From: Tribonema minus
Lineage: Eukaryota; Sar; Xanthophyceae; Tribonematales; Tribonemataceae
Length of the DNA stretch: 64,000 nucleotides
Direction: 5' to 3'
Assembly (NCBI GenBank): GCA_017506865.1
Contig: JAFCMP010000002.1
Span: 124,001 to 188,000 of the forward strand
In this document: positions 9,693 to 63,913 of the stretch, in pieces
How the letters are laid out: each line of letters begins with the position of its first letter
Position numbering within the stretch: the first letter of the stretch is position 1
Notes under the pieces: model-generated
What the model was told of the DNA's origin: nothing
The model's database searches: none
The model's input: the letters and a program-made list of their open reading frames with translations, nothing else
Made by a program: the position numbers and the translations under genes

Positions 9693-12600
9693 CTACATGG
9701 CAATGCCGTTCTGCAACGACTGTATGTAATCGTACTGCCACGTCTTCACGCTATTGGCGCTGCTCTTGATCAGGCCAAGGATCTCTTCGTCGGTCTGAGA
9801 GCGCACGAGCAGGCGAGCAAATGGCAGTTGAAGTTAAAGTAGTTGTGCATCAGATGAAGTGAAGAGTTGACGCTGCAAAAGGCAGGTACATAGAGTTTCA
9901 AGTTCAGTGCTGCTGCCGAGGTGCCATTCATCTGCTTGGACACAGTTTTAGGCGCACCCAATGCAGCTCTTTCACGTGCCGCACAGAGCAACTTCATGTG
10001 CTCACTCTCTGGGAGCAAGCCGTATGGTTTGCAATGGCTTGCACACATCTGGTCGGACACAGTTTTAGGCGCACCAATGCAGCTCTTCACCTGCCGCACA
10101 GAGCAACTTCCATGCGCTCACCCTCTGGGAGCAAGCGGTATGGTTTGCAATGGCTTGCACACATCCTTTGCTCTGGTGTGTTTGATTCGGTATACTTCGA
10201 ATTAGTGACTTTGAAACCCTGCGTGCCACTACTCAGTGTGTCGCCGCACCATCAGCAGCTTACAACAGGCACAACGCAAGCAGGGTTGACAAATACGGTC
10301 GGTTCTACGTCATACATACGGTACATAAGTATACTGCCCTGACAAGCCTATACATACGGTATATACGGTTGCCACAAACTTCAACTTTAACTTCACATTT
10401 AACTTCATGTTTGAACTTCCTCCTTAATTTTGCCGGTGCATGAGGGCCGTGTGCGGTTGCCGAGCATGGTTTTGCTGGTTCGAGCACGAGCTGCGCGCTT
10501 CATGTCGTATATGAATGCTCAATGCACGCATTTTACCACCATCTGTGCTCTGTATCCCGGCTGCGCTGCCCTGCGGGTGCCTGCACCGGTCCGTATATTC
10601 GTCCTGGCGGGATTCATACGTACGCTCATACGGTATATACGGTTCATACGGCGTAGGCCGTATATGTCAACCCTGGACGCAAGCGCAACCTAGTTCTTCA
10701 TCCCCAAATGGCAAGCGCAACCTAGTTCTTCATCCCCAAATGGCAGCATATGGATGGCTACCTGAGTGGCGTGCAGTGATGGACCACAGCTACGCTGACG
10801 TGCACGGTTTGTATGGAGGCATTTCTTGACTGCAGCTGTCAAGGCGAATGTGATAGCATATCCCTTACACCCCGCATTTAAGTGACAGGCCAACACATTC
10901 AACTGCATCTTGGCAGATGTGCAGTGCAGTGCAGGGGCAGAGCTCACCTTCAAGTCCGAGAAGCGCTTCTTGAGCTTTGAGATCTCTATGAGAGTTCTCC
11001 TGTCGTTGGCCGGCATCATCACCTGGCAGCAGGCAGTCGCACAGGCAAGAAAGTCAATATAGTGAACAAGAGCACGCACCAACACACGCAGCCTGCAGCA
11101 TGCGTGCATTGAAATTGGCAAGAGCCGCAAATATCATGCGAGCTGTTGCATGTGGTGACCACGTGCTATAACAAAACATGTAAACTTACTCAGCATACCA
11201 TCTTATCAATCATTAAGGACACTGAACGGCTTTTTTTGTTTACGCGTAAGAAAGGGGGGGCGGACGTCCTTTTTGCAGAGCGAATCACGAGGGGTGGACG
11301 CATTTTGAGAAGAGTACAAAGATCGAACCCTACGCACTTCATTCCTCTTCATGGATCATTGGCTTGCCGCAGCACACAAAGCGACCAACTCGGCGGCAAA
11401 GCAAGTTTCGTCCTCGCCAGTTTTGTCAGGGTCCGCTTGACAGAGCAGCCCCAGAGAGTCAAGTGCTGCTGAGGTGTTGTAATGACGGACGGAAGAAACT
11501 GTGTGAAGTCCTTACAGGCGTTTTTCAAGTAGCAATTCAAACTCAAAAATCACCTTCACCAGCGGAGAGGTTGATGATGTTGATCTGCACCAGACGAGAG
11601 TGATTCAGCCGTGCCTGGACAGATAAGTCCTCTGCTTCAGGTTGAAGTTACAGTTATGTCATGTACAGCACATACTTCAAATTCAAAGCTCACCTGCACT
11701 AGTGCGGCTATGTCGTTGATGTTGTTCTGCACTACAACGGACAGATCAAAAGTTGAAGTGATGTCAGGCACCGATACTGGAGCATTATACTCTAAACTTC
11801 AAGCTCACCTGCACTAGTGCGGCTATGTCGTTGATGTTCTTCTGCACAGCGCGGAACCCTGCCAGGAACAGCTCCTGGAACTTGACCCAGTTGACGCTCC
11901 CCACACCGCCCATTATATCAATGTAGTCCTGAGCAATGTCACAGCGCATGATGGTGCAGTGCGAGTGAGCTGAGGCCCCGCCTGCATATTGCACACCTGA
12001 TTGCTCAGGAAGACTTCACGGCACATGGCGCTTTGGGCGCGGCATACTGCATGCTGCGCTGAGCATGAGCGGAGGGTGACTAGGGACCAACTGAAGCCAT
12101 TGTGCATCTGGTTGTGGTATGTGTACCTTCCTACCCAGCACTGCGACATGATAGCACTTGGTTGTGCGGTTGCAAACCACATCTAACTACCTCACTCACG
12201 TCCACCCTACATCAAGCAAGAAAGAAAAAGCAGTGCGCTCCTGCCACGTGGTTGGGCGCTGCTGCCTTGCGAGCACGGCACATCACCTGCGTCAAGTACT
12301 CTCAGCTGGCACTTGGGCGAATTGCAGTGCCTCTGGGAAATATGTGCTGGCACTTGCTTGGGCAGCAAGACACATTAAATCTACGATATATATTGGAAGT
12401 ATCACCACAAGCATTGATGCTATTCCAGTGGAACATACAAGTCATGACATGTCAGCATACTATACTACTGCCTTTACTGTACATGTATATGCAGGTATGT
12501 AAACGTACCGAGGTAAGCTTGAATGGCGCTGTTTCATGTGTCCACAGACCCGGACTTGCCCCCAGGATGAAGCCAAAGTCAATATGGATGATGTGGCCAC

Positions 12601-62700: not shown

Positions 62701-63913
62701 CGGTGGTAGTGCAGCTGGTTTAGCCGGTTTAGCAGCAGCAGCAGCAGCAGCGCCACCAGCGATGGTGAATCAGATGACCGCTACCAGCACCAGAGCCTGC
62801 TGCAAGCGCAAGCGAGCGCCTGCCAAGCTCATGCACTGCTTGCTGTATGCCTGTCGTTGGCGCTTTGCTACAATTTGGAAGTTGCCTTGCTTGCTGCACA
62901 AGGTACGGGTTTCTTATACCGTCGCGTAAGGAATCCCCTTTCTTACACGCAAGGGATTCTTATACGGCGTATAAGAAAGGGCGTTTCTTATACAGCAAAC
63001 CTAGTATCTTACATACATGCCTGTCAAAATGTTATAAGAAACGGGTGTCTTATACGCCGTATAAGATACCCGTTTCTTATACAGAGGCACTGCCTTATAC
63101 CCCGTGATTTACGGTATGCAATGCTGGCTGGCATTCTCTATGTTGAAGTGGCATTTTGCGAGGCAATTGGGTTCTGTAGACATTAATCAATGCACCACGT
63201 AATACTCGTCCTCGTTGTGTAAGGCACAGCTAAACAACCAACGAACACAAAAATGCATTGATGCTGACACTTCATGCTAAGGAAACTTCACAAAGGTTCT
63301 TCAAAGCACAAAGTCGTGATACTCAGCACACACGCATGTACACCCTCCGATATTGCACACCACACCATGCCAGTTTTACCCTTCAATACGCAACAGAAAT
63401 GGGATGCAGTGGATGGCAGTATTGGCAACGAAGCTAGTTGCTTATTCTTGTGTATCCGCTCGTATTGCTTGTTTTGATGTACCCCACCCCCCCACCCCCC
63501 ACCCCCACCCCGCTTAACATTTGAGATGCCACCATGCTGAAGCGCCATGATAACAGCGCACAGCATAAAGCTACCCCTAACCCTAACCCTCTCCGCAACT
63601 TGTTAACTTCTACATCATCTGCACCAATCCGGTCACGCTGCCAAGCTATCATAATATGGTACAGTAGGCATGTTCAAATGGCACATTGCGACCACTTAAC
63701 ACAGAGTTAGAGAGGGCAGCTACCGCTGGAAGGTGGTGAGGAGTCGGTGGCGCACGAACCGCAACTTTTCATGAATGTTCAACTTTGTACATCACTTTAC
63801 CATGCACCGTCAAAAGATTTGGAGGCACCTACCGCTGGAAGGTAGTGAGGAGTCGGTGGCGCACGAACCGCTTGGCAAAACGATCGCTTTCCACGTATGA
63901 CATGGCGAATATT
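53753..63913 (-). CDS. Unrecognised multi-exon gene with long Gln/Ala/Ser-rich C-terminus (5' partial)
   Basis: The exons are 63833-63913 (preceded by more outside the window), 62122-62251, 61144-61281, 59928-60119, 59035-59083, 58300-58448 and 53753-55385. Phases agree at every junction except 59035 to 58300, where an exon may be missing. Readable pieces include VESDRFAKRFVRHRLLTTFQ, PDEFRDIGEGTPGMLFTTF, LVHASTQGGTRAMPVVFSL, MQLALSYMIIFLRLLCCDE and VHWVAAMLASADRHFEYAAL. The last exon starts HFRCAATARVMADNLSRGAA and then, after about 65 residues, becomes low complexity. It has poly-Gln/Leu/Pro, poly-Ala and Ser/Tyr-rich tracts with an acidic end (DIDVDEDLLAQLAEELDSED). The helical middle could be a scaffold or trafficking protein, but I recognise no family. 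Glutamine-rich tails with acidic ends are common in regulatory proteins; that is only suggestive. Confidence 0.75.
55465..55915 (-). repeat. Acceptor-side echo array of gene X last exon, five copies
   Basis: The exon start (plus-strand CGTGGCGGCGCAGCGGAAGT, then GGCTGCGGC and GACGATGGCGGCAG) recurs near 55470, 55572, 55660, 55763 and 55866. Spacing is about 100 bp. Each copy brings a GTTAGGGTTAGGG-like segment. Confidence 0.93.
56398..57800. mobile_element. hAT-type element with palindromic GAGTACTC arms and exact 8-bp target duplication
   Basis: The ends are ACAGTCAGGACGAGTACGAG and its inverted counterpart. The 8-bp duplication AGCTTTAC flanks the element exactly (56390-56397 and 57801-57808). 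The subterminal regions (56540-56770 and 57520-57790) are long runs of ACTCGAGTACT-type palindromes. The centre has a minus frame at 56862-57404 of 180 codons without clear transposase motifs, so the element is probably non-autonomous. It sits in the intron between the last two exons of gene X, and a LINE tail is nested inside it. Confidence 0.85.
56449..56552 (+). mobile_element. Short LINE 3' tail nested in the hAT-type element
   Basis: Starts GTCGTTGCGACACTTTCAGA and ends GAATTAATAAAAAGTACT. Over 100 bp it matches the tail of the 7122-9012 LINE with only a few differences, so both insertions are fairly young. It interrupts the left GAGTACT-rich arm. Confidence 0.9.
57945..58160 (-). repeat. 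Donor-side echoes of gene X exon 58300-58448
   Basis: The plus-strand unit GGTGAAACAC, then CACCTGCAGCAGCACAGGTG recurs near 57942 and 58111 below the true donor at about 58294-58299. Confidence 0.82.
58529..58735 (-). repeat. Acceptor-side echoes of gene X exon 58300-58448
   Basis: The exon start (plus-strand CGGCGCTGGCTAGCATCGCC, then GCAACCCAGTGCACCTGA) is copied at about 58545-58585 and 58690-58725. The copies encode VHW/VCW-AAML variants in the same frame. Confidence 0.85.
60297..60440 (-). repeat. Acceptor-side echoes of gene X exon 59928-60119
   Basis: TGTTCACAATGTGCATCACC, then TGGGAGGGGGGCGGC recurs at about 60297 and 60406. Both keep the pyrimidine-rich acceptor on the minus strand. 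Confidence 0.9.
60895..61135 (-). repeat. Donor-side echo of gene X exon 61144-61281 with co-duplicated intron
   Basis: 60942-61030 copies the exon end (GCGGTGGTCGAGACTGAATC, then GCGCGCGTGCCCCCCTGCGT). The word AGCTTCATAAAGCTTGTGTA occurs at 60896 and again at 61040. Confidence 0.87.
61895..62060 (-). repeat. Donor-side echoes of gene X exon 62122-62251
   Basis: Units with CCCCGACGCAGACCCCGCTCG or ACTTCACCTTGGCGTTCCCT, then CATCATGCGCGTACC and TGTTCATTTG, recur about every 120 bp below the exon's true donor. Confidence 0.8.
62406..63114. mobile_element. TA-flanked non-autonomous DNA element, 709 bp
   Basis: The ends are CCGTAAATCACGGGGTATAA and its inverted copy, with TA on each side (62404-62405 and 63115-63116). 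The palindromic word CTTATACGGCGTATAAGA or near variants occurs at least four times inside. An Ala-rich frame in the middle (about 62690-62900) is not transposase-like. It lies in an intron of gene X. Confidence 0.82.
63720..63766 (-). repeat. Donor-side echo of gene X exon 63833-63913
   Basis: CTACCGCTGGAAGGTGGTGA, then GGAGTCGGTGGCGCACGAACCG is a near-exact copy of the exon end and its donor, 111 bp away. Confidence 0.93.

Follow-up and report, generated by a model that had tools for sequence, protein, structure and literature searches.

Repeated direct copies of exon edges adjoin exon-intron junctions in genes of Tribonema minus

Introners are dispersed families that create new introns, and intron growth, including the long introns of some lineages, is usually attributed to transposons. 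In the Rogers model, an intron is born when a piece of exon containing AGGT is duplicated in tandem; its acceptor end then copies the end of the upstream exon, and its start copies the start of the downstream exon. A potato RdRp gene gained an intron by duplication of an existing intron-exon structure (PMC4974935). The DNA analysed here, hereafter the window, is a 64,000-nucleotide (nt) stretch of nuclear DNA from the xanthophyte (yellow-green alga) Tribonema minus (assembly GCA_017506865.1, contig JAFCMP010000002.1, positions 124,001 to 188,000, forward strand) that contains a PI4-kinase (PI4K) gene on the minus strand and a cupin/JmjC gene on the plus strand. Exon edges of both genes are copied together with their splice sites into the adjoining introns, as the original prediction for this stretch had claimed. 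These duplications are confirmed as genuine, and they extend beyond the window into unrelated genes.

The T. minus arrays share with Rogers-type introns, with the potato case (PMC4974935) and with the near intron pairs of Drosophila (PMC2891723) a direct tandem duplication that includes or makes splice sites. However, those cases are single intron-creating events, whereas in T. minus existing junctions are affected, often repeatedly and in 31 of 59 introns, and introns are extended rather than created. An unchanged peptide is a further likeness to the Rogers model, in which, unlike in T. minus, the copies do not stay on the side of their source.

Introners resemble the arrays in their recurrent, genome-wide effect on introns, whereas each T. 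minus array belongs to one exon alone. Intronic minisatellites likewise consist of direct units of about 100 nt, in several cases apparently arranged head to tail; minisatellites are not known to be tied to junctions, whereas 41 of the 49 T. minus families include an exon edge. Tandem exon duplication, which yields mutually exclusive exons, is also a local duplication of coding sequence, but the T. minus copies comprise one exon edge, normally without the other splice site. Intron sliding and tandem splice sites (PMC2891723) also place duplicate splice sites near a junction; sliding shifts the junction slightly, whereas in the T. minus models the used junction stays put, with the copies inside the intron. 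No description of exon edges copied beside their own junctions was found in the literature surveyed by title and beginning of abstract, in which subscription journals are thinly covered. Thus, the single event is already known from the potato case, and the recurrent form, tied to junctions and present in one gene after another, was not found in that literature.

The sample comprised 59 splice-modelled introns, 17 in the two window genes and 42 in kinesin genes elsewhere in the assembly (158 Mb, 554 contigs; the window lies within the contig here called C2). Mapping of the deposited T. minus proteins P0241 (PI4K) and P0121 (cupin/JmjC) gave 12 of the window introns, all with GT-AG borders. Five further PI4K introns were modelled by tblastn with proteins of relatives (P0245 and P0242) combined with a splice model; one of these (19713-20489) was retained despite a splice score of 4.63, the cut-off elsewhere being 7. 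Genome-wide Pfam kinesin matches provided 132 exon matches, 86 neighbouring pairs and 58 modelled introns, 42 of them with a splice score of at least 7. Splice models outside the window are based on profile matches and consensus sites. Two myosin genes were held out and analysed with settings fixed beforehand; ten of their introns were modelled and two excluded for low score (one with two families, both exon-reaching, the other with none), and the remaining eight bring the total of counted introns to 67.

Overlapping self-alignment pairs with a score of at least 24 were merged into local duplication families, and a family was taken to reach an exon when it held at least 10 nt of it. Across the 59 introns, 41 of 49 families reach the adjacent exon. 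Under a null in which families were slid as rigid blocks to random positions (5000 runs), the expected number is 8.6, 14.2 +/- 2.9, 21.2 or 25.7 +/- 3.3 for permitted exon overhangs of 50, 100, 200 or 300 nt, and no run at any overhang attained 41 (maximum 37, at 300 nt). A position independent of gene structure, as in minisatellites, is therefore not what is found (41 of 49 against 14.2 to 25.7).

The window genes alone contain 20 families in 17 introns, of which 18 are exon-reaching: 12 of 14 in the introns drawn from deposited proteins (null 2.5 +/- 1.4) and all six in the added PI4K introns. At least one such family occurs in 13 of the 17 introns (9 of 12 in PI4K, 4 of 5 in cupin/JmjC). 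In the kinesins the proportion is 23 of 29 (null 9.8 +/- 2.2), and in the held-out myosins 7 of 9 (P 0.004, 100-nt null). Because conserved exon letters ease the detection of copies, detection was rerun with intron letters only; 32 of 40 families were again exon-reaching (null 11.4 +/- 2.5 at 100 nt; 20.3 +/- 2.9 at 300 nt, P 0.0002). Thus, the pattern is not created by exon conservation.

The copies derive from each exon's own edge and not from one shared family. The comparison of own-edge with other-gene matching proposed along with the original prediction was run on the 42 kinesin introns: at a score of at least 20, a match to the exon's own edge was present at 10 of 42 donors and 9 of 42 acceptors, whereas 1678 cross-gene pairs gave 0.010 (donor) and 0.008 (acceptor) per pair, or about 1%. 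Own-edge matches are therefore far more frequent. Self-alignment of the kinesin exon-intron-exon segments at a score of at least 24 yielded 96 pairs, against 2.5 in reversed sequence. A cruder test on DEAD-box exons found matches in 13 of the 60 flanks belonging to the exon itself, spread over 8 of 30 loci, versus 138 of 1740 flanks of other loci. Five DEAD-box loci (L065, L066, L068, L074 and L078) have copies of the 3' edge downstream and of the 5' edge upstream; in L066, whose exon end is approximate, the downstream copies end 79-81 nt before the end of the profile match.

Donor-edge families occur in 22 of the 59 introns and acceptor-edge families in 20, so that about half of the introns (31) carry one or the other. 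With the unit taken as the smallest spacing within a family, its median length is 118 nt (range 42-621, mostly 80-180). The exon arm is mostly 20-80 nt, with a median of 42 nt (19-79) in the 59 introns and 47 nt when the myosins are added. A firm ceiling on the arm, suggested by the maximum of 79 nt in the first 59 introns, had to be abandoned when the held-out myosins showed arms of 93 and 139 nt; two of 49 arms, myosins included, exceed 80 nt. Between one and five copies can be aligned to the real junction at 42 junctions. As in minisatellites, the copies are direct and in one orientation (165 direct pairs versus 1.5 inverted), and several arrays are also called by TRF.

Introns with a junction family have a median length of 915 nt, compared with 592 nt for those without any family. 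Detected duplications account for 31% of intron bases. The claim that introns are largely built of copies thus describes some introns, up to 84% in 13517-14874, but does not hold as a general statement (in 3 of the 12 introns drawn from deposited proteins the share is 0). Spacing had been put at about 50-230 bp; the nearest copy lies 55-374 nt away (median 126.5) and the farthest at 835 nt. The predicted drop of identity with distance is absent (Spearman rho -0.016, P 0.88, 86 pairs). Copies that simply get older outward from the junction are therefore less likely than recurrent events with array growth in mixed order. What stands of the earlier interpretation is a recurrent, junction-concentrated process that copies each exon's own edge and lengthens introns; the decay with distance and the general statement on intron make-up do not, and the specific replication or repair process that it named is conjectural.

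Copies are 65-97% identical to their source (median 80%). Relative to the real exon, identity is 0.875 in the exon part and 0.796 in the intron part beyond 8 nt, where 0.766 is expected if the exon is fixed and the rest drifts; the divergence thus fits neutral drift. In the kinesin copies the GT letters are kept at 0.88 and the AG letters at 0.91, compared with 0.88 and 0.85 for exon-derived letters. Strings of decoy splice sites do remain in the introns, as predicted, and they look neither preserved nor purged. Spacings modulo 3 (0/1/2) are distributed 29/27/30, which indicates no reading-frame constraint. Together, these three observations make most copies look like neutral, spliced-out debris. 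Comparison of copies with one another is biased, as their exon part was the means of detecting them. A transfer of exon sequence to the copies by gene conversion was also considered; six pairs are suggestive of it, yet the overall divergence fits neutral drift.

The reading favoured here, at a probability of roughly 0.55, is that short direct duplications recur with a focus on exon-intron junctions and that their products are removed by splicing along with the intron. Such duplications would arise repeatedly across donor and acceptor junctions alike, with a typical unit of 20-80 nt of exon plus tens of nucleotides of adjoining intron. The junction nearest the exon body would stay in use, and the extra copy would become intron and be spliced out, so that the mRNA would be unchanged and the copy would drift freely. 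Repetition would produce strings of up to five alignable copies and longer introns. The junction would, in this reading, be a mutational hot spot rather than a mere site of survival, and the proximate cause may be slippage or a switch of template during replication, at a feature coincident with the junction, such as the exon-intron step in base composition or chromatin, or a co-transcriptional RNA-DNA structure.

Several results weigh against this reading. The held-out myosins taken alone are not significant with the 300-nt null (P 0.15), and 8 of 49 families (8 of 40 by intron-letter detection) are purely intronic. Families are clustered by gene (P 0.009): all four counted introns of the kinesin gene on C516 and all five of the myosin gene on C522 have one, versus none of three in the myosin gene on C501, which lacks families in all four introns modelled for it, including one with a low splice score. 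Thus, junctions alone are insufficient. Within the window, no family was found in the 3.6-kb 5' part of the cupin/JmjC gene although two of its exons lie there, whereas five families occur in 4.6 kb at 53.2-57.8 kb, a region of low complexity and coding repeats, and seven in 6.0 kb at 57.8-64.0 kb, outside both modelled genes. Finally, among 34 young copies (exon arm at least 90% identical, with a testable far intron arm), 18 are homologous beyond 25 nt of intron (z >= 4) and 12 are not clearly so (z < 2); in at least one of these 12 an apparent transposon remnant, recognised by eye, follows the donor. Both slippage-driven tandem duplication and the templated insertion of short pieces may therefore be involved.

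The strongest rival is a boundary of base composition or chromatin, in which DNA is fragile in replication where a GC-rich exon gives way to a GC-poorer intron, or where a nucleosome is positioned on the exon, splicing is uninvolved and the junction only marks the step. The GC step is larger at junctions with a family (0.146 versus 0.098 without, P 0.006), which makes such a boundary a serious candidate cause, and exon arms under 80 nt in 47 of 49 cases are also in its favour. However, neither whole-intron nor whole-exon GC content distinguishes introns that carry families from those that lack them (P 0.29 and 0.55), and neither of the coding/non-coding borders at the stop codons of the two window genes (9693 and 41049) adjoins a family, a comparison of two borders only. 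A purely compositional or chromatin origin is possible, if doubtful. The bolder option within the favoured reading is a coupling to transcription or splicing: a junction-recognising factor, such as the co-transcriptional spliceosome, an RNA-DNA structure or a mark that splicing leaves on chromatin, would trigger local re-copying of about 120 nt, and splicing would thereby write back into the genome and drive intron growth. This option is put forward tentatively.

Duplications might instead arise evenly throughout the genome, with a survival filter that retains those neutral for the mRNA. Junction copies are intronic and leave the message unchanged, as such a filter requires, and copies of exon interiors are few, with matches at a score of at least 20 in 4 of 30 loci. 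One of these four (L016) has a single match, of score 20, and the other three (L017, L021 and L022) have overlapping or long, low-identity and repetitive-looking matches; the cross-locus background of this screen, in which upstream and downstream were swapped for minus-strand loci, is high (25 expected). Purely intronic duplications, however, would be equally harmless and yet are the minority described above, so that an even rate combined with a survival filter fits poorly. In addition, uniform breakpoints would give longer exon arms than those observed (mean 64.3 nt expected versus 48.7 nt observed, P 0.0006), and families are all but absent from several, though not all, of the stretches that flank the two genes or lie elsewhere in the window. 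This explanation is improbable.

Maintenance of the arrays by selection, as decoy splice sites that regulate splicing or intron retention, has little to commend it. One copy (37745-37765) is an exon in the deposited cupin model, and in six pairs the exon part is at least 95% and the intron part at most 82% identical, for which constraint or gene conversion is possible; on the other hand, the retention of GT and AG at the level of exon-derived letters, the fit to neutral drift and the lack of a frame preference speak against selection. Equally poor as an account is intron birth, whether Rogers-type or by intron sliding, with the copies as relics of intron origin. The event is of the same type, a direct duplication with a splice site, as in the potato RdRp intron derived from a duplicated intron-exon structure (PMC4974935). 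The swapped-edge signature of such an origin was nevertheless sought and not found: 83 of the 86 copies sit in whichever half of the intron adjoins the junction they came from, and 11 of the 59 introns (22 + 20 - 31) contain families of both flanking exons. Tandem structures are commonly misassembled, but the copies differ from their source by 3-35%, without near-identity, and recur in genes on other contigs, which leaves an assembly artefact with next to no credibility.

If the favoured reading is correct, much intron growth in T. minus would proceed by repeated copying of own edges, with the copies keeping a readable record of it, and this would be a new and testable source of intron growth. 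A junction hot spot, if true, would call for an explanation of how RNA processing or chromatin leads to DNA duplication. The arrays also constitute natural experiments on splice-site choice, in which similar sites compete at graded distances in native genes. Introns are long as well in another stramenopile, Ectocarpus, with a median of 524 bp on autosomes (PMC12477816); thus, the question of intron growth can be asked of the whole lineage.

The PI4K gene (beta type) occupies 9693-24336 on the minus strand. Exon-by-exon mapping of P0241, deposited as 'pi 4-kinase [Tribonema minus]', places exons at 9693-9794, 10948-11022, 11809-11928, 12509-12640, 13406-13516, 14875-15042, 16191-16328 and 17763 to about 18555. 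The tblastn matches with P0245 and P0242 and the splice model locate further upstream exons near 19490-19712, 20490-20560, 22534-22765, 23124-23297, 24026-24134 and 24241-24336. The deposited protein (292 amino acids) lacks the N-terminal exons that were placed at about 18.4-24.3 kb, and their recovery indicates that it is cut short at its N-terminus.

All duplications described below for the two genes were found by self-alignment. Six donor-edge arrays lie in PI4K: at 11536-11847 (exon arm 39 nt, best identity 90%), at 14432-14915 next to exon 14875-15042 (41 nt, spacings 92-326, readable directly in the sequence), at 16055-16229 (39 nt), at 17004-17789 (27 nt, ten aligned pairs) and, in modelled introns, at 19143-19529 (40 nt, identity up to 97%) and 21873-22560 (27 nt). 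Acceptor edges are copied in arrays at 13469-14213, from exon 13406-13516 (48 nt), at 18491-19066 in a modelled intron (65 nt) and at 19674-20261 (39 nt), where the intron model has a low splice score, and as copies at 15008-15374 (35 nt) and, in modelled introns, at 22747-22876 (19 nt) and 23270-23535 (28 nt). A counter-example is the duplication at 9929-10165, a 116-nt unit with 93% identity, also called in the tandem-repeat scan, which stays within the intron.

The modelled part of the cupin/JmjC gene spans 34160-41049 on the plus strand, with a Pfam JmjC_2 domain and exons at 34160-34301, 35000-35194, 37462-37593, 38842-38984, 39972-40169 and 40881-41049. It was placed with P0121, deposited as 'cupin superfamily protein [Tribonema minus]', which is 95% identical to the draft cupin protein of the window; the first deposited piece (33673-33696) was left unused. 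At 34231-34430 the final 71 nt of exon 34160-34301 and the start of its intron are duplicated 110 nt downstream, which can be read directly in the sequence. Donor-edge arrays follow at 35139-36065 (exon arm 56 nt, eight aligned pairs) and 37553-37953 (41 nt), and a donor-edge copy at 38906-39231 (79 nt, 73% identity). Acceptor-edge arrays lie at 36859-37487, 5' of exon 37462-37593 (26 nt), and at 38613-38864 (23 nt, period 105, also found by the tandem-repeat scan). The duplication at 38154-38376 does not reach an exon and is the counter-example in this gene.

Within the array at 37553-37953, a 21-nt part of one copy (37745-37765) is annotated as an exon in P0121, where it repeats the seven residues DPDLTIQ; this reflects either real splicing or a gene-prediction error, and the segment was counted here as intron. 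An inverted exon of the same gene (DELAGLSC...LLVNEVNR) lies on the minus strand at 31624-31827, between the plus-strand exons 30624-30761 and 34160-34301, and the deposited P0121 lacks the part that it encodes. The gene may be broken by a local inversion or by an assembly error.

Tiling of the window in 1.2-kb pieces gives 0.88 and 1.31 families per kb in the two gene loci, versus 0.10, 0, 0 and 0.45 in four other stretches of the window: one family in the 9.6 kb left of PI4K, none in 6.0 kb at 24.4-30.6 kb, none in 5.6 kb at 41.05-46.6 kb and three in 6.6 kb at 46.6-53.2 kb. A 22.1-kb control, defined by exclusion of 7.0-8.9, 46.6-50.0 and 53.2-64.0 kb, some of them repeat-bearing, contains one family covering 0.3% of its length. 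The pattern had been claimed for three genes on both strands, of which two, one on each strand, could be modelled. In the third stretch (57.8-64.0 kb) Pfam searches found no domain; its seven families, at 57801-64000, resemble those of PI4K and cupin/JmjC.

Short telomere-like runs of TAACCC/TTAGGG lie inside introns of the PI4K and cupin/JmjC genes, at 21176-21211 and 34711-34743, respectively. In the intron after the kinesin exon C516:752029-752274, about 230 nt in (locus L036), a donor-edge copy with 97% exon identity is apparently followed directly by a dispersed repeat, which by eye is also present near 15240 and 31560 of the window. Long open frames on the plus strand at 7041-8858 and 24510-26516, the second with a reverse-transcriptase-like motif by eye, are probably retroelements. 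Two others on the minus strand, at 28624-30191 and 45667-47356, are possibly related ATPase genes, the first with a P-loop-like motif by eye (VTGGTGAGKST).

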